Source: Frankia sp. R82
GTDB taxonomy: Bacteria; Actinomycetota; Actinomycetes; Frankiales; Frankiaceae
Length of the DNA stretch: 49,608 nt
Assembly (NCBI RefSeq): GCF_023716925.1
Contig: NZ_JAMQQG010000023.1
Coordinates: forward strand, 1 to 49,608
Reading direction: 5' to 3'
Of this stretch, positions 36,211-49,279 are shown one piece after another (position 1 is the stretch's first letter; every line of letters begins with the position of its first letter). Under the pieces are notes generated by a model. It saw nothing but the letters and a program-made list of their open reading frames with translations, did no database searches and had not been told where the DNA came from. The translations under genes and the position numbers were made by a program.

Positions 36211-40065
<3,855 letters not shown>

Positions 40066-40071
40066 GCGACA

Positions 40072-40152
40072 CCTCCCTGTGGTGGGAGGCGCCCTTACGA
40101 CTGGTTCGGGCCGAGCGTGGCGGACCTGGGCCCGTTGCAGCGCCTCTCGACC
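40072..40152 (-). promoter_or_regulatory. Candidate S-adenosylhomocysteine (SAH) riboswitch for metH
   Basis: Minus-strand leader of metH. It has GAGGCGC with the exact complement GCGCCTC 50 bases later (P1: 40140-40146 with 40086-40092), the conserved GCTGCAAC directly after P1, GCCCAGG, and a CGAG / CTCG pseudoknot pair (40146-40149 with ~40111-40116). That is the order seen in SAH riboswitches. CCTCCC of the 3' P1 strand (40084-40089) can instead pair with the GGGAGG ribosome site (40072-40077), giving an OFF hairpin that is exclusive with P1. A SAM-type class is less likely. Confidence 0.65.
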
Positions 40153-40334
40153 TGAGCGTAACGATACCGTGCTGGGATGATCATCCCGGGCCCGCTCGCG
40201 TCGACGGTCTCGCAACCTCGCCGTGGTCTGGGTCGCATCCCCGTCGCCGCCGGAGCCGCCGACCGAGACGTGCCTGCCGTTCCCGCCGCCCGACGCTGTC
40301 CATCGTGGTGTTCCGCGGAGCCGTCGCGGGCGCC

Positions 40335-41060
40335 TCAGCGTGGATGGCCGGCGCGGACACCGGACAGGTGGGTGACGGTGTTGAACTCGGCGAGGGCAAG
40401 CCGTCCGTCCCGGTGGGTGAAGCGGGTGATGCCGGCGTTGCGGATGCCGCCGGTGGCGCTGATCTGTTCCAGGTCGTCGTAGGACAGATCCTCGATGATC
40501 TGGCGCAGCACGACGACCACCGCGTCATGGGCGACGACCAGGACGCGCTGGCGGGGATGGCGGGCGTGTAGATCCGCGAGCAGAGAGCTCAGCCGGGCCG
40601 CGATGTCAGGAAAGTTCTCCCCGCCGCCGGGCGCGCGAAACAGCCAGGTGCCCTCGGCCCGCCACTGGGCGGACTGCACCGGAAACCTTGCCTCGATCGC
40701 GAGCCGGGTCGTCATCTCCCAGTCGCCCATCAGCCGGTCGACCAGGCGGTCGTCGATCTTCGGCGTGGGCAGCAGCAGCCCGTTCCGTTCCGCGGCCTCG
40801 GCGGCGATCTCGTAGGTGCGCCGGGCTCGCAGGTAGGGGGAGCAGACGACCACGTCGGGCGGACGGATGACGGGAGGCTCCGCGGCGAGCGCACGACCGA
40901 GGGCCGTGGCCTGCGCCCGGCCGAGCGCGGTGAGCGGGACGTCGGCATCCCGGCTGGTGATGCCCGTCTCCAGCCGGCCCGCCGCACGCGCCGCCGGGAA
41001 GGCGACGTTGGCCAGGCTCTGCCCGTGCCGTACCGCTGTCAGCTCCGCGATCAGGACCAT
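40335..41060 (-). CDS. Histidine phosphatase family protein (phosphoglycerate mutase-like)
   Basis: 241 residues from ATG 41060; a GTG at 41063 is equivalent. [12 protein letters not shown] (~8-19) contains the catalytic RHG His, [21 protein letters not shown] (~77) the second conserved Arg, LMGDWE the Glu, and [17 protein letters not shown] the second His. Phosphohydrolase acting on an unknown small phosphorylated substrate. The frame continues upstream to 41471 without a stop but reads repeats and AT-poor, unconserved sequence. Not obviously linked to metH, despite the same direction. Confidence 0.85.
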
Positions 41061-41505: not shown

Positions 41506-41580
41506 GGTCCCGTGGTGAAGTCTGGAGTTCACGCCGCCCTGTCAAGGCGGAGGTCGCGGGTTCGAATCCCGTCGGGACCG
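41506..41580 (+). tRNA. tRNA-Asp (GTC)
   Basis: 75 bases. Acceptor GGTCCCG pairs with CGGGACC, D-arm GTGAA/TTCAC, anticodon arm CCGCC-CTGTCAA-GGCGG with GTC, T-arm GCGGG-TTCGAAT-CCCGT. CCA is not encoded. Cloverleaf drawn by hand. Confidence 0.93.
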
Positions 41581-41631
41581 CGTTCGTATGGTCGGAGCAG
41601 GATGTCCGGTCTTATGACGCACGGCAAGTTG

Positions 41632-41705
41632 GGGCAGGTAGCTCAGTCGGTACGAGCGTCCGCCTGAAAAGTGGAAGGTCGGCGGTTCGACCCCGCCCCT
41701 GCCCA
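41632..41705 (+). tRNA. tRNA-Phe (GAA)
   Basis: 74 bases. Acceptor GGGCAGG pairs with CCTGCCC; GCTCAG D-arm; anticodon loop CTGAAAA gives GAA. The anticodon stem contains one G-T pair (TCCGC/GTGGA). Standard TTCGACC T-loop. CCA not encoded. 51 bases after tRNA-Asp, so probably one transcript. Confidence 0.92.
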
Positions 41706-41774: not shown

Positions 41775-43364
41775 AGCTTGATTTTTAACTTCGCTGGTGG
41801 TGGGCGGTGACGGTCAGGTCCCGCTTGATGGTCTTCCCGACGTCGTGGTGGGGTGCGGGTCTGCGGTTGCGTGAGCCGGGTGGGCGGCCGGGTCCGGGTT
41901 TGGTGGGTTTCGGTGCGCTGACGGGCAGGGGCATGGTCGCGCGGATGTTCCGGAACCCGCGTCGGACCCGGGCGGGTGTGAGTCGCTCTGGTGGTGCTGG
42001 TTTCTCCCAGGGTCGGCGAAGGTCGTGGGCCAGGGTTCGGGCGAGGCGGAGCTGGGTGTGGGCGGCGACGAGCAGCCAGGTCCAGCGGTCGGCGGCCTGC
42101 GGAGAGCGGATCTTCGGGCGGGTCCAGCCGAGGGTCTGTTTGAACAGGCGGAAGGTGTGTTCGAGGTCGAAGCGGCGCAGGAATGCCTGCCATGCCTGGT
42201 CGATGGCGGTAGCGCTGACGCCGACAGCGGAGAACCAGAGCCACACGGGCTTGGGGTCGCGGTCGCCGGGCAGGTGGTCGACCTGCAGGCGGATGAGGGT
42301 GCCTTCGATGAGGGGCAGGTCGCCGGTGTGGTCGATCCAGCTGGTGCGGTGGGTGAGCCGGGGGTGCAGCCGGTTCCAGCTGCGGGCGGTGGCGGTTCCG
42401 TAGCGGGTGGTCTGGGTGATCGTGGTGTGCTGGGGTTCGGGCCAGGTCTGTGGTGTGTTGAGGGCGAACTCGGGGCCGTGTTTCGGTGGGCGGCCGCTGG
42501 TGCCGGGGCGTCGGGGTGGTGTCGGGAACCTGAGCACCCTGTCGGAGCGGATCCGGCCGAGCAGCTCGACGGGCAGGTCGGCCAGGACGAACGCCAGCCG
42601 GGTGACGTCGTAGCCGGCATCCATGACGACCAGGATGTTCGGGTCACCGTCGCGCCAGTGCCCGGCGGCGGCCAGCCTGCTGACGACCGCGCGGAGCTGG
42701 TCGGCGGTCACCGCGGTGGCGTCATCGGCGGGGCCGAGGCGGACCGCGTCCAGGACTGCGGTCCACGACGTGCGACCGGGTTCGAGGGCGGCGACGAACG
42801 AGTAGGGCCAGCCCGGGATCAACTGGGCCTGGTCCTTCGCCCTGCCGTACACGTGGCAGAACAGCCGGTCCGCGCTGGTGGGCGCGTCCGGGCGCAGCCA
42901 CGGGCTGACGTCGACGGCCAGCACGAGCCGGCCGTCGGCGGCTCGTGGCAACGGCAGGCCGGACAGCGCCCGGCGCAGCCGGCCGATGTCGAGCCGGCCG
43001 TGGCTGACCGCGTCGTAGAGGGCGCCGTGGCCGCGGCGGTGTTCCGGCGCCAGTGACAGCCCTACCAGTGACCGCACCGGACCGTCGGCGCACAGCACCG
43101 CGTCGGTCAGCTCGAACAGCACGTCGCTGCGTGCGGTCAGGCAGGTGTGGAACTCCCGGCGGAACGCCGACAGCGTCGCGGCGTCCGCGACTTCGGACGC
43201 GTGGTCCGGCAAGCTCTCCTCCACGGCCATCTGGGGATCATGGCGTCTTTGGCGAGAAACCACGATCAGCAGGAGGCCGTGCCACGTCACGGCGACACAC
43301 CGAACTACCCCATGCCACCAGCACCTATCGCAGGCAGTGAGCAGCAGAGGTTAAACGACAAGCT
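41775..43364 (-). mobile_element. Insertion sequence 1, NF041680-type transposase, ~1.59 kb
   Basis: Terminal inverted repeats AGCTTGATTTTTAAC (41775-41789) and GTTAAACGACAAGCT (43350-43364), 12 of 15 positions matching. The transposase gene is intact. Its TAA stop lies inside the left repeat. Inserted about 20 bases past the tRNA terminator. The right end abuts IS 2. Confidence 0.8.
41785..43230 (-). CDS. DDE transposase, NF041680 family
   Basis: 481 residues from ATG 43230. Typical family landmarks: FHTCLTARSDVLFELTDAVLCADGPV at the start, LAPEHRRGHGALYDAV, VLAVDVSPWLRP (first Asp), ILVVMDAGYDVTRLAF (second Asp), WFSAVGV, and RRFDLEHTFRLFKQTLGWTRPKIRS carrying the Glu. The C-terminus is Pro/Arg-rich. 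No lesion seen, so possibly active. Related to but clearly distinct from the broken transposase next door. Confidence 0.9.
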   Translation of the reverse strand: MAVEESLPDHASEVADAATLSAFRREFHTCLTARSDVLFELTDAVLCADGPVRSLVGLSLAPEHRRGHGALYDAVSHGRLDIGRLRRALSGLPLPRAADGRLVLAVDVSPWLRPDAPTSADRLFCHVYGRAKDQAQLIPGWPYSFVAALEPGRTSWTAVLDAVRLGPADDATAVTADQLRAVVSRLAAAGHWRDGDPNILVVMDAGYDVTRLAFVLADLPVELLGRIRSDRVLRFPTPPRRPGTSGRPPKHGPEFALNTPQTWPEPQHTTITQTTRYGTATARSWNRLHPRLTHRTSWIDHTGDLPLIEGTLIRLQVDHLPGDRDPKPVWLWFSAVGVSATAIDQAWQAFLRRFDLEHTFRLFKQTLGWTRPKIRSPQAADRWTWLLVAAHTQLRLARTLAHDLRRPWEKPAPPERLTPARVRRGFRNIRATMPLPVSAPKPTKPGPGRPPGSRNRRPAPHHDVGKTIKRDLTVTAHHQRS

Positions 43365-43365
43365 A

Positions 43366-44917
43366 AGCTTGAGATTTAACCTTTCTTCTTGCGTCTCGAC
43401 TTCGCGGGTATGTCTGTTTTGCGGATTTCTGAGCTGAGTCGGTGGCGTGGGGCGGGGGTGTTGTGGCCTCCGGGTGGGCGTCCGGGGCCGGGGTGGCTGG
43501 TTTTCGGTAGATGGGCCGGGGTGCCGACGCGATCACGCAGGTGTCGAAATGCGCGGCGGACCCGGTAGGGCGTGAGGGGCTTGCCGGGGCGGGGTCGTCG
43601 TTCCCAGGGCCGGCGCAGGTCGGTGGCCAGGTCGCGGGCGAGGTGGAGCTGGGTGTAGGCGGCGATGAGGAGCCAGGTCCAGCGGATGGCCTGCTCGGGG
43701 TGGCGTAGCCGTGCCGCGGTCCAGCCGAACTGGGACTTCATCAGTTTGAAGGTGTGTTCCATGTCGAAGCGGCGCGGGTAGGCCCGCCAGCACACGTCCA
43801 GGTCAGGGGTATCAGGGCCGGAGTGCCACAGCCACATGGTCCGGTGCGGACTGCGACCGTCGGGGAGCCGTTCCACCCGTACCTCGATCACGGTGCCCTC
43901 GATGATCGGGAGGCGGGTGAACAGCTCGTCTCCGAGGCGGGCGAAGTAGCCCGAGCGTGCGACTCTCTGGTGCATACGGTGCCAGGCCCGGACCTCGACC
44001 CGTCCGTAGTTGGCGGTGTCGGGCACGATCAGTAGCTGGTCGGGGCGGCCGCGGTGGCGAGGGCGAACCGCTGGCCGTGGATGCCGTTGCGGCCGGGGCC
44101 GGGTTTGCGGGGGCCGGGGCGGCCGTCGTAGAAGACACGGTCGCCGGCGATGCGCACGAGGATCTGGACGGGCAGGTCGCCCAGAGCGTGGGTCAGTGCG
44201 GCGGCGGCGTATCCCTGGTCCAGCACGAACAGCGGAGCAGGTCGCTCTACCGACGAGCGTGCGCCGAGCCGTGAGGCCAGGTCGCGGATCTGCTCGGCGG
44301 TCACCGTCACCGGGCAGGGGCCCTGCGCGATGCGGCGGGCGTCGACCGGCAGCGTCCAGGAAGAACGTCCCCATTCCAGAGCGGTGATCTACTGGAACTC
44401 CCAGCCCGGCACGACCTTACGGTCGCCGTCGCATCGGCACGGCGCATAGTGCAGGCCACGGTCGGGTGAGCATTCGGCGTTCGGCCGGGGGAAGGTAGTC
44501 GCGTCCACCCCGAAGATCATGGGGCTGTCGGGTGGAAGCTGTTCGGCCAGCAGGTCCCGCAGCCGTTCTTCATCGATCCCACCCTGGGCCAGCGCGTCGT
44601 AAAGGGCTCCATGGCCACGGCGGAACACCGGCGACAGCGACAGCTCGACCAGCGACGTCACCGGAGCTTCCGTGCACAGCACCGCATCCGCCAGCTCGAA
44701 CAGCGTGTCCGCCCGACTGTCCAGGCAGGAATAAACCCATCCCGGAACCGAGTCAATCCACCCAACGATTCAATACCGCCACTCTCGCCCAGTACACTCA
44801 CCCTTTACAGACATCGATACCGCACTCGCTGAGCAGAGTACGAACACCCTCTTCATGTAGAGGATTCGACGTATTTGAGCAGTCGTCAACGATCATGAGA
44901 TGGTTAAATTTCAAGCT
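43366..44917 (-). mobile_element. Insertion sequence 2, related family, inactivated, ~1.55 kb
   Basis: Ends AGCTTGAGATTTAAC (43366-43380) and GTTAAATTTCAAGCT (44903-44917) are inverted repeats with one mismatch, extendable to CTAAG...CTTAG outside (43363-44920). TA on each flank may be a 2-bp target duplication. Its left end touches the right end of IS 1. Confidence 0.8.
43376..44770 (-). pseudogene. Broken NF041680-type transposase of IS 2
   Basis: The protein starts in frame with SCLDSRADTLFELADAVLCTEAPV, continues to KVVPGWEFQ where an in-frame TAG (~44386) interrupts it, resumes as VTVTAEQIRDLASRLGARS in the same frame, then shifts frame near 44030 to finish as PDTANYGRVEVRAW...HTFKLMKSQFGW to the TAA at 43376. 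No clear start codon upstream of 44770. One nonsense and one frameshift mutation make it non-functional unless recoding occurs. As in IS 1, the stop lies within the terminal repeat. Confidence 0.85.
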
Positions 44918-45155: not shown

Positions 45156-45656
45156 ATGGAACCGGATAGCGGATCTGGTCACATTTTCACCCAATATGCG
45201 ATTGAGCAGCTAGCATCAGAAGAGAACAGAAGAAACTCGCTCACGAGTCGAGCAAGCGCCACCATTACCGCCTCGGCCGCACTAGTTACGCTTCTCTTTG
45301 GCTTCGTCGCGTTGTCGAGTAAGACGACTAATTACCATCTTCCGGTGTCCGCTCGACCCTGGCTCGTGGCCTCTTTGACGTCGTTCACCGTGTCGGCGGT
45401 TGCCGCTGCTCTTAGCCTGCTGCCTTTCAGCGTCTGGACTCCTGAAGTGGACGATCTGCAGGCCGTCTTTCGGACGCGGTGGGATTCGACACCAGACAAC
45501 GGGCGGAAGACCCTCCTCGCCAATCGACTTTCCGAACTCGCAAGTCTCCAGCACTCAAACAATCTGAGGGCCTGGCTTGTCCTTACCGCCATCGCCCTTC
45601 AAGTCATTGCAGCAGCACTGCTGTCTGTCGCAATGATCAACGTGATCGCACACTAG
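45156..45656 (+). CDS. Three-TM membrane protein upstream of the CHAT protease
   Basis: 166 residues. A charged amphipathic N-terminus (QYAIEQLASEENRRNSLTSRAS) runs into TM1 (TASAALVTLLFGFVAL, ~35-52), TM2 (WLVASLTSFTVSAVAAALSLLP, ~70-92) and TM3 (WLVLTAIALQVIAAALLSVAMINVI, ~138-163), with a ~45-residue cytoplasmic loop between TM2 and TM3. The start of the family (ENRRNSL.SRA...TASAALVTLLF) resembles small membrane proteins often found next to actinobacterial conflict and defence genes. It is followed 44 bases later by the CHAT gene in the same direction, so they are probably co-expressed. It could be a membrane effector or a receptor/anchor. Third positions are less GC-biased than in the flanking chromosome. 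Confidence 0.7.
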   Translation: MEPDSGSGHIFTQYAIEQLASEENRRNSLTSRASATITASAALVTLLFGFVALSSKTTNYHLPVSARPWLVASLTSFTVSAVAAALSLLPFSVWTPEVDDLQAVFRTRWDSTPDNGRKTLLANRLSELASLQHSNNLRAWLVLTAIALQVIAAALLSVAMINVIAH

Positions 45657-45700
45657 TTTACCCGGCGCGTTTGGCAACCTCTCGATCAAAAGGCGGAGCG

Positions 45701-48700
45701 ATGGCCGATTCCTTCAAAGCTCGTACCTCCATCATTTGCGAGAACTGCGGCACTCACACCTCAGTGTGGGCATGGTCGGTTCTTGATCGGAACGAACATC
45801 CCGCAGCTTTCGAGCAGGGGAATCCGTTCCAATTCTCGTGTCAAAAATGCGGACATGCCATAGCTGGCGGCCATGTAACCGTTCTGCTGAATGCGTGGGA
45901 GTCGGCGCCGGCAATCACAGTACTGCCGATCCTCGGCTACGCGAACCCGCCATTTGAAGTCTTTGAAGGCCGGCTCGAAGATGCGCATCGTAGGGTCTTT
46001 TCCTCAGGAATCAAGGTTCGACCTCCCTTCGTATCAGTCTCATCTGGGCTCGTCTCGGTCGCGATCTCTCGTCGTCTTGATCTGAGACTTGAGAGCGATC
46101 TCGCAGATCTAGCCGACCTACCAGAAGAGGCGATACACGCCTATAGGCATTTCATAGAGGGTGTGTCTCGAACTAGTTTCATCCGCTCGATCGTCGATGC
46201 CCTTACGGAACTGATTTCTATCACTTCCCTAGCCGAATTTGAGCGTTTTCTCAAAACTCATCCGTATATTACTTCTCCTGAGGCTCTAGCCCTGGAGGAA
46301 GACATTTTCCAGGGCCAACCACACCCTCCTGAGGATGACGCGATATTCATAGCTAGGCGGCGACTACTACAGCGGTGCGGTTCAGGCGCCGTTGCGGACG
46401 CCTGGAACGAATATGCTACTGCGGCAGCAGACTTCGGCCAAGGTCTAGGTGCGCGCCTCGAGTCGCACCTCCGAGAAGTGGATTCGTTGCGCGAGTCCCA
46501 CGGGGAATCCGACCTGGTCGCGAGCAACCTAAAAGCAGCGGCGGAGTTGGCGGCCGCACTTCGGCTCGATCAAGTCGAAGCCCATGTGAGAGCAGAACTT
46601 GGAAATTTCCTCAGTCAGAGCGATGACCCAGATTGTATTTTGGAGGCCTTTGTAAACCTCGAACGGTCGGCCACTCTACTAGATAAGCGTGGCGAGCCCG
46701 CCAAATTTGCAAGGATCCAGGTCAGCATGGGCCTAGCGAAATTTCGATACCCCCGTGGCGATCGTCAAGATAACCTTCGTAGGGCTCGAAACGCGTTCGA
46801 GAAGGCACTGGAGTACTTCAGTCTTGATAGAGAGCCGGAGATCTGGTGCCTATGCCTGATGAATCTGGCGCTCGTCTATCTTGGCTACCAAGAGGGGGAT
46901 CCAGACGAGAATGCCATGAAGGCGCAGTCTCTTTGTGAAGAGACACTTCAGTTTAGGCGCCCCGAGCGTAACGAGCTAGATTGGGCGCTTAGTCAATTCA
47001 ACCTTGGCGTAGCCCTAGCCCGAATCAAAAATACTCGGGCGAGCAGTCGACGAGCGACATTGGCACGCGCGATCGAGTCATACGAGCTCAGCATGCAGGT
47101 ATTCACTCGAGAGGAGTATCCGAATCATTGGAGTTCGGCTCACCACAATATCGCCGATGCGCTCCACGTGCTCGAAAGAATGAGCCATAGAAAACATAAA
47201 TTGCAAATCCTCCAGCGATATGGAATCGTGGAAGCGGGCAACGTCGACGAGTTTCCTTCGGAGTACCTAGATGAACATCTCCAATGGGCCGAGCTCGCCA
47301 TCAAAAACCCAGCCGCCTTCGGCGAAAGTGCCCCACCATGGACGGAAGACTTTGCTACAGCTGTGCCCAGTTCCGCCGATATGGATCTCATCCAGCGGGC
47401 CTTTGACCACGTCGATCAAGCGCTCACGGTAAGATCGGCGGAGGATTTCCCACTCGACTGGGGGCGCACGCAGGTTTTGGCTGGCGATCTTTGCGCGGTA
47501 TCGTCTATCGGCGGACACAAGACCCAAGTATCGGAGCACTATACGCTAGCGTTGACGACGCTGACCGTAGAACGCGCGCCAGTGGACTGCATGCAATGTG
47601 GCAGTAAACTTGGCGGGTTCGCCGCCGAGCGGGGCGAGTGGAAACTTGCTGCGGAGGCCTTCGACAAGGCAGTTGTCGCGCAGAGCGTGATGCTCCAAGA
47701 GGCCACGTTGCGGTCGACAAGAGAAGGCGTATTCGAAGAGAATCCAAACCTCTCCAGGTGGGCTGCGTATGCGATCGCCAAATCCGGGAATGCACAACGC
47801 GCGGTAGAAGTTCTCGAACAGAGCAGGGCGCGCTCACTTAAAAATCTCCTCACGCTCGAACATGGAAGACTTGGCGATCTCGGAAGATCCTCTCCGTATC
47901 TCGCCAGCGAGTTCCTCAGAGCGCGCGAAGCGCTTAATGAAGTAATAGCCTCAACGACCGGTAATGTGAGCTCAGACTCTCTAGTCGAGATAAGATCTCA
48001 CTACGATGACGTGCTGGAAAAGATAAGGAGCCTGCCAGAGTTCGAACTTTTTCTAAAAGAACCAGAGTTCTCGGATATTGCTAGATCAGCCCTAGTTGAT
48101 CAAGTATTGGCATATGTTGCTCCGACGCCCTCGGGAACGGTCACACTTCTCGTCGAGGCTGTGGATAAAACGACCGACGGCGACGCTGAAGTCTCGGCGC
48201 GCGCAATATTTAGCCCTGCTACTAGCGCCGAGATCGTTGCCATGCTACTTAGGGCAGATCCGGAAGCGCCGGGAATCCTATATGGTCAATTGAGAGAGCA
48301 GGACGTCTCCCCATCTATCGCTGAATCGCTAAGACTTCTAGGGGAGCGTCTAGTTCGCCCAGTCGCAGAGGATCTGATTCGAGTAGGTCACAACTCGGTA
48401 ACGGTCGTCCCGTGCGGTCCGACGGGCTTTCTACCAATTGCGGCGGCCAAAATTGGTAGTTCGGCCAGCCTCCTGGACTCGGTTGCTGTCGCCTTCTCTC
48501 CCTCTGGCGCGACCACCGAAGTCTGCCGAGCCCGTGTCGCAGCGGCCGATAGTTCCAACCGGCGGATTTTCGCGGTCGGAAACCCGTCGCGCGACGGGAT
48601 GATTGAGTTGCCTGGAGCCGGCGCCGAGGTGCTCGCGATAGAAGCGACCTATGGAGCGGCTCGGACGCTCGTACTATCCGATCACGCTGCGTTGAAAAAT

Positions 48701-49279
48701 CGCGTTCTGCCCGAGCTGAGAACAGCTGCCTACATCCATTTTGCCTGCCACGCTACGACCGATATCGATGACATTCGTAACAGTCGGCTACATCTCGCCG
48801 ATTCGGATCTGACGCTCGCCGAAATCAGTAGCATGGGCGCCCTGCCCGCCCGTCTGGTGACTCTCAGCGCGTGCCAGTCTGCCCACTTTGGACTGTCAGG
48901 TGACATCGAGGAGGCGGAGGGGTTGCCGACCGGATTCTTGGCGGTCGGCGCCGCCAGCGTCATAGCGACCCTCTGGCAGGTTGATGACCGTGCCTCTGCG
49001 CTGTTGATGAGCCGATTCTACGAGGAACTTCATCGTTCCGAGGCGGATGGCGCCGTGACAAACGCTCCAGCACGTGCGCTGAGGTCGGCCCAAATATGGT
49101 TGCGAGACCTTACTCTTGAGTCCGAAGAAGGATATCTCGCCGCTCGGCCCAGGCTCCGGGATAGCCTCCCGCCGATCAGCTACGAAGAAGACAGTTCGGA
49201 ACCGTATCCTTCTAACCCGTCGGAACGGCCTTACTCCGACCCGATGGACTGGGCGGCCTTCGTAGCCTTCGGCCAATAG
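45701..49279 (+). CDS. CpXC - TPR - CHAT protein (caspase-like protease candidate)
   Basis: 1192 residues from ATG 45701 (GGAG site; upstream frame overlaps the previous gene). Residues 10-60 form a CpXC-like zinc site: C13-x2-C16 and C47-x2-C50 (CENCG...FSCQKCG). A linker region to ~290 has no clear assignment. From ~310 to ~790 helical TPR-type repeats follow (FVNLERSATLLDKRGEPAKFARIQVSMGLA, ALSQFNLGVALARI, GEWKLAAEAFDKAV). The CHAT domain is at ~840-1190 with His1017 in IHFACHAT and Cys1058 in LVTLSACQSA, the caspase-type dyad, then GFLAVGAASVIATLWQVDD. Both catalytic residues are present, so it is likely active. TPR-CHAT proteins act in bacterial programmed proteolysis and defence; its target is unknown. 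Codon use is markedly less GC-rich than the rest of the window. Confidence 0.88.
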   Translation: MADSFKARTSIICENCGTHTSVWAWSVLDRNEHPAAFEQGNPFQFSCQKCGHAIAGGHVTVLLNAWESAPAITVLPILGYANPPFEVFEGRLEDAHRRVFSSGIKVRPPFVSVSSGLVSVAISRRLDLRLESDLADLADLPEEAIHAYRHFIEGVSRTSFIRSIVDALTELISITSLAEFERFLKTHPYITSPEALALEEDIFQGQPHPPEDDAIFIARRRLLQRCGSGAVADAWNEYATAAADFGQGLGARLESHLREVDSLRESHGESDLVASNLKAAAELAAALRLDQVEAHVRAELGNFLSQSDDPDCILEAFVNLERSATLLDKRGEPAKFARIQVSMGLAKFRYPRGDRQDNLRRARNAFEKALEYFSLDREPEIWCLCLMNLALVYLGYQEGDPDENAMKAQSLCEETLQFRRPERNELDWALSQFNLGVALARIKNTRASSRRATLARAIESYELSMQVFTREEYPNHWSSAHHNIADALHVLERMSHRKHKLQILQRYGIVEAGNVDEFPSEYLDEHLQWAELAIKNPAAFGESAPPWTEDFATAVPSSADMDLIQRAFDHVDQALTVRSAEDFPLDWGRTQVLAGDLCAVSSIGGHKTQVSEHYTLALTTLTVERAPVDCMQCGSKLGGFAAERGEWKLAAEAFDKAVVAQSVMLQEATLRSTREGVFEENPNLSRWAAYAIAKSGNAQRAVEVLEQSRARSLKNLLTLEHGRLGDLGRSSPYLASEFLRAREALNEVIASTTGNVSSDSLVEIRSHYDDVLEKIRSLPEFELFLKEPEFSDIARSALVDQVLAYVAPTPSGTVTLLVEAVDKTTDGDAEVSARAIFSPATSAEIVAMLLRADPEAPGILYGQLREQDVSPSIAESLRLLGERLVRPVAEDLIRVGHNSVTVVPCGPTGFLPIAAAKIGSSASLLDSVAVAFSPSGATTEVCRARVAAADSSNRRIFAVGNPSRDGMIELPGAGAEVLAIEATYGAARTLVLSDHAALKNRVLPELRTAAYIHFACHATTDIDDIRNSRLHLADSDLTLAEISSMGALPARLVTLSACQSAHFGLSGDIEEAEGLPTGFLAVGAASVIATLWQVDDRASALLMSRFYEELHRSEADGAVTNAPARALRSAQIWLRDLTLESEEGYLAARPRLRDSLPPISYEEDSSEPYPSNPSERPYSDPMDWAAFVAFGQ

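Follow-up and report, generated by a model that had tools for sequence, protein, structure and literature searches.

A SAH riboswitch of the RF01057 family precedes metH in Frankia sp. R82 and probably governs access to its ribosome site

Comparison of leader sequences identifies the metH leader of Frankia sp. R82 as a real and conserved SAH riboswitch of the RF01057 family, in which SAH would open a hairpin over the Shine-Dalgarno (SD) sequence by way of the pseudoknot P4 and allow metH to be translated, a reading to which we give a probability of about 0.9. The parts of this reading that were observed are the family match, the gene, a conserved structure and two mutually exclusive helices that covary. 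The element lies on the minus strand of the window, the whole stretch of 49,608 nucleotides that was analysed. The riboswitch family is known, and the Frankia element is a further member of it with lineage features, namely a swap at Rfam positions 41 and 64 and wide under-detection by the Rfam model; our literature search found no paper tying a SAH riboswitch to Frankia.

The Rfam covariance-model search matched RF01057 over its full length (model positions 1 to 78) at 40154-40080, with 39.2 bits against a curated gathering cut-off of 37 bits and E values of 0.00072 (whole window) and 7.3e-6 (a 501-base stretch), and in the 6.9-Mb genome the metH leader holds the only match. This search had been proposed as a check by an earlier note, made from the letters alone, which took the leader for a SAH riboswitch controlling metH. 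Its score above the threshold, together with conservation, covariation and folding, bears out the class, and the target stands as well, since the ATG at 40065 follows the leader and the product was identified by profile matches to MetH (TIGR02082, 1542 bits, cut-off 1011; NF007024, 1858 bits). The P1 and P2 helices with the conserved junction are found in front of a gene of the SAM/SAH cycle. The window gave no match to RF01727, the SAM/SAH riboswitch, and a match to isrD at 40012-40030 (20.1 against a cut-off of 37) was ignored as below threshold.

All the sequence pieces that the earlier note had named, GCTGCAAC, CCCAGG, CGAG/CTCG, GAGGCGC/GCGCCTC, CCTCCC and GGGAGG, were located on the minus strand within 40153-40072; the Rfam alignment gives several of them other roles. 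GAGGCGC/GCGCCTC, proposed as P1, is the pseudoknot P4, which is established for the SAH riboswitch family and absent from the Rfam structure line, and CGAG/CTCG, proposed as the pseudoknot, is a part of P1. CCCAGG, thought to be the core motif, falls in P2 and its loop, which the structure line gives as two bases; because the true core counterpart is CCACG (40120-40116) and directly abuts CUCG, the insertion supposed to lie between CCCAGG and CTCG does not exist. The idea that one aptamer strand also pairs with the ribosome site is supported by covariation and folding, with the correction that this is the 3' strand of P4 and not that of P1. The order 3' of P4 is CCC, a six-base loop and then GGGAGGUGUC, and in the minimum free energy (MFE) fold GGCGCCUCCC and GGGAGGUGUC form a 10-bp hairpin with the ribosome site hidden within. 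P4 and this hairpin cannot coexist because they share a strand (Table 1).

Table 1. Features of the metH leader and gene, in positions of the window
Feature	Position	Strand	Basis or remark
Probable -10 box TATCGT	40161..40166	-	position of TANNNT box across leaders
SAH riboswitch aptamer	40080..40154	-	full-length RF01057, 39.2 bits against gathering 37
P1, 5' strand GGUCGAG	40146..40152	-	Rfam structure line; covariation
P4 pseudoknot, 5' strand AGGCGC	40140..40145	-	pairs with 40092-40087
P2, 5' strand CGGGCC	40129..40134	-	Rfam alignment; covariation
P2, 3' strand GGUCCG	40121..40126	-	Rfam alignment; covariation
Core junction CCACG (family consensus CCAGG)	40116..40120	-	C at 40117 is Rfam position 41
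P1, 3' strand CUCGGCC	40109..40115	-	Rfam structure line; covariation
G at Rfam position 64 (family consensus C)	40094	-	swapped jointly with position 41
Anti-SD strand GGCGCCUCCC	40084..40093	-	10-bp hairpin in MFE fold; covariation
P4 pseudoknot, 3' strand GCGCCU, also within anti-SD strand	40087..40092	-	covariation
CCTCCC	40089-40084	-	sequence
SD strand GGGAGGUGUC, ribosome site GGGAGG at 40077-40072	40068..40077	-	sequence, fold, covariation
metH, cobalamin-dependent methionine synthase, 1284 aa	36211..40065	-	start ATG 40065-40063

Frankiaceae, mycobacteria and many further actinobacteria (Amycolatopsis, Actinophytocola, Actinocorallia, Micromonospora, Paractinoplanes, Actinoallomurus, Planobispora and Sinosporangium among them) share the element in front of metH, with compensatory changes in P1, P2, P4 and the anti-SD hairpin. 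At the parsed loci metH follows wherever the gene could be read; among the first-round matches it lay downstream in 19 of 20, the twentieth (L017) being without a readable metH. In Frankiaceae, RF01057 gave matches in 27 of 35 genomes at E <= 0.1, at least one of which (L113) was judged to be chance, and exceeded the curated cut-off in 11, versus 28 of 35 for a covariance model built from 27 actinobacterial leaders, members of this family being included by construction. Across the class the actinobacterial model found the element in 73 of 394 genomes, a figure only roughly comparable with the 6 of 396 of an RF01057 survey of the phylum, which used a different sample and strict filters. In the named genera listed above, the gathering cut-off reports 3 of 12 loci scanned, all 12 of which bear the element by pattern. 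The arrangement can be regarded, on sequence comparison, as widespread in actinobacteria and often scoring below the standard Rfam threshold, and the difference between 11 and 28 genomes suggests that current annotation probably overlooks much of the SAH riboswitch class in this phylum. Weak RF01057 matches in L105 and L113 did not parse as the element and were set aside as chance, as were several equally unparsed matches at 23-26 bits in Mycobacteriaceae genomes (e.g., L124-L127, L129, L130, L132 and L133).

Covariation was assessed in 44 distinct leaders, aligned after reduction to the paired parts and the core, with the variable loops cut out. In the aptamer helices 93.2% of cells are paired, and eight pairs show two-sided changes in a total of 51 cells (cells, not events, related sequences being counted separately), compared with 19.7 +/- 4.4 in shuffles, none of 500 of which reached 51; sliding the partner strands cuts the pairing to 25.7-42.3%. 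P4 is paired at six of six positions in all 44 sequences (100%), with a compensatory change from CG to UA in 10 of them, in the mycobacterial group. The anti-SD hairpin is 84.8% paired and has 15 two-sided cells against 2.9 +/- 1.3 in shuffles, the SD register having been set at the AGG position of best complementarity, which leans towards a hairpin. Its six inner pairs are nearly always kept; in ten sequences pair 55/60, just past the shared strand, has UA in place of CG, and CG, GC and UA all occur at the closing pair 57/58. L202 combines the UUCC/GGAA change with a GCGC background, which suggests a possible origin independent of the mycobacterial change.

Of 67 actinobacterial leaders, 66 carry a TANNNT box at a distance of 4-11 nt before P1, compared with an expectation of 6% from shuffled flanks. 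A -10 box at this distance means that the RNA most likely starts at P1, and the predicted start in Frankia, at about 40155-40153, probably coincides with the first bases of that helix; such a start would fix the strand and make the aptamer nearly the whole leader. Just upstream of the box, at 40187-40174, is a perfect palindrome, GGGATGATCATCCC, that may be the operator of another regulator acting on metH; the GATCA core at this site occurs in most leaders of the genus and hardly outside it.

The proposed control of metH can be set out in five steps: (i) the transcript would start at or beside P1; (ii) at low SAH, GGCGCCUCCC would fold onto GGGAGGUGUC, blocking the ribosome site and leaving metH untranslated; (iii) accumulating SAH would bind at the P1/P2/P4 junction and stabilize P4, in which AGGCGC pairs with GCGCCU; (iv) P4 would thereby take up the same strand, so that the hairpin opens, uncovering the AGG of the ribosome site and allowing metH translation; and (v) the homocysteine made from SAH by AhcY would then be remethylated. 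The identity and the binding of the ligand, like the direction and the size of the effect, are what we infer here. Folding alone gives an SD unpaired probability below 0.2 in 66 of 68 leaders; with the P4 strands reserved, the median rises to 0.41, and with two control strands reserved it stays near zero. In 24 of 68 leaders the model gives a gain in accessibility of at most 0.3, and CCC can still pair with three G of the SD when the ON state is modelled, which suggests that release may be partial. For the window, the hairpin state comes to -51.7 kcal/mol and the aptamer state to -33.2 kcal/mol, with P4 adding about -10 to -13 and tertiary and ligand energy not counted, so that ligand binding could plausibly tip the balance. 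Against our main reading, the MFE alone is not unusually stable (z -0.99). The leader sequence has no T-run after the hairpin, which makes translational control likelier than termination. SAH binding probably makes the ribosome site accessible and so switches metH on, the translational ON switch that the earlier note had proposed and with which the Rfam match, conservation, covariation and folding are consistent. This direction agrees with the upregulation of ahcY ascribed to the class (Wang et al. 2008, as cited in PMC7057144).

Such a direction can be set beside the gene content of Frankia. ahcY is present in the genome, and a search for metE (TIGR01371) gave no match in the assembly, which is 95% complete, so homocysteine remethylation depends, as far as seen, on MetH; judged from gene content, homocysteine from SAH should pass through this enzyme. 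The arrangement offers a clear model, open to testing, of how Frankia and many other actinobacteria tie methionine synthase to the amount of methylation by-product.

A G+C-rich leader could in principle match the model by chance, and both the high G+C content and a score only some 2 bits over the cut-off, which also counts against our main reading, speak in that direction; the orthologous elements kept in front of metH in many families, their covariation and the constant spacing of the promoter leave this idea with practically no probability, and by the comparison of leaders it can be taken as already refuted. The SD hairpin might instead be controlled otherwise, by a protein or by translation itself, with an inherited aptamer that no longer binds ligand. 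Nearly all leaders have a very stable hairpin, which could act alone, yet between distant families the TGCRA, CCACG and AAGG junctions and the P4 pairing either stay the same or change in a compensated way, and we regard such control as very improbable.

The remaining alternative concerns the ligand, and its evidence lies in the core. RF01057 has consensus letters G41 and C64, in place of which the Frankia element carries C and G; as the full model still passes, these letters are a consensus preference and not a defining rule. The two positions are C and G in all 41 parsed actinobacterial members, as in every further actinobacterial member read, versus G and C in L101 and in each of the 32 proteobacterial members parsed, and the swap is best seen, from its distribution over the sequences, as one coordinated change between lineages and not as many events. 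We take C46 of the crystal construct to correspond to Rfam position 64. In the solved SAH aptamer, C46 is found at the amino-acid tail of the ligand, and C16, A29 and G15 hold the adenine (PMC7057144). With a putative pair at the ligand site swapped, a genuine RF01057 descendant might have changed its preference, towards another adenosine compound or the SAM/SAH balance. We consider this unlikely, as the swap preserves Watson-Crick complementarity, the equivalents of G15, C16 and A29 (Rfam 17, 18 and 40) are unchanged and the genes downstream belong to the SAH cycle. SAH as the ligand remains our preferred reading, and under it the swap provides a natural double mutant for probing how the aptamer holds SAH. 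Tentatively, and at somewhat less than even odds, the actinobacterial members may constitute a subtype of their own, widespread and mostly uncalled, with a swapped ligand-site pair and one strand serving both pseudoknot and anti-SD pairing, which controls metH and in some genera adenosine deaminase and which may have another affinity or selectivity than the proteobacterial type.

With RF01057 as described, the Frankia element shares P1, P2, the P4 pseudoknot, the UGCRA and AA-G core and metH as a target, a SAH riboswitch before metH being known in Comamonadaceae (PMC4239095). Apart from the C-G pair at 41/64, it differs in P4, which is AGGCGC/GCGCCU instead of GAGCGC/GCGCUC (a compensated change), and in an SD hairpin that shares the 3' strand of P4, a feature that inspection by eye did not reveal in the 32 proteobacterial leaders. 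For Mycobacteriaceae, of the same phylum, the occurrence of a SAH riboswitch is reported (PMC3766115); the members found here precede metH, carry C41-G64 and have an SD hairpin of the form CCUUCC/GGAAGG, whereas that of Frankia is CCUCCC/GGGAGG and its linker between P1 and P4 is longer. RF01727 resembles the element in its pseudoknot and translational control but has another fold and stands before metK in Rhodobacterales (PMC2864571).

The same type of leader was also seen before other genes: adenosine deaminase in two families of the class (L115, where the product matches PF00962, and L207, assigned by sequence resemblance to L115) and a class I SAM-dependent methyltransferase (PF08241) in L104. 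SAH as the signal is supported by the role of adenosine deaminase, which would clear the other product formed when SAH is hydrolysed, and both targets fit that signal; adenosine deaminase was not found as a SAH riboswitch target in the literature searched.

As for the surroundings of metH, a co-directional gene of the histidine phosphatase superfamily (PF00300) lies directly upstream (40335-41057, minus strand). Farther on are two tRNA genes (41506-41705) beside two adjoining open reading frames that resemble transposases of one family (41785-44374, minus strand). A search against plasmid DNA gave short unrelated matches only. Neighbouring the tRNA genes and the transposase-like frames, an open reading frame of 1266 aa (45479-49279, plus strand), with a C-terminus resembling a CHAT protease-type domain, is possible island cargo.
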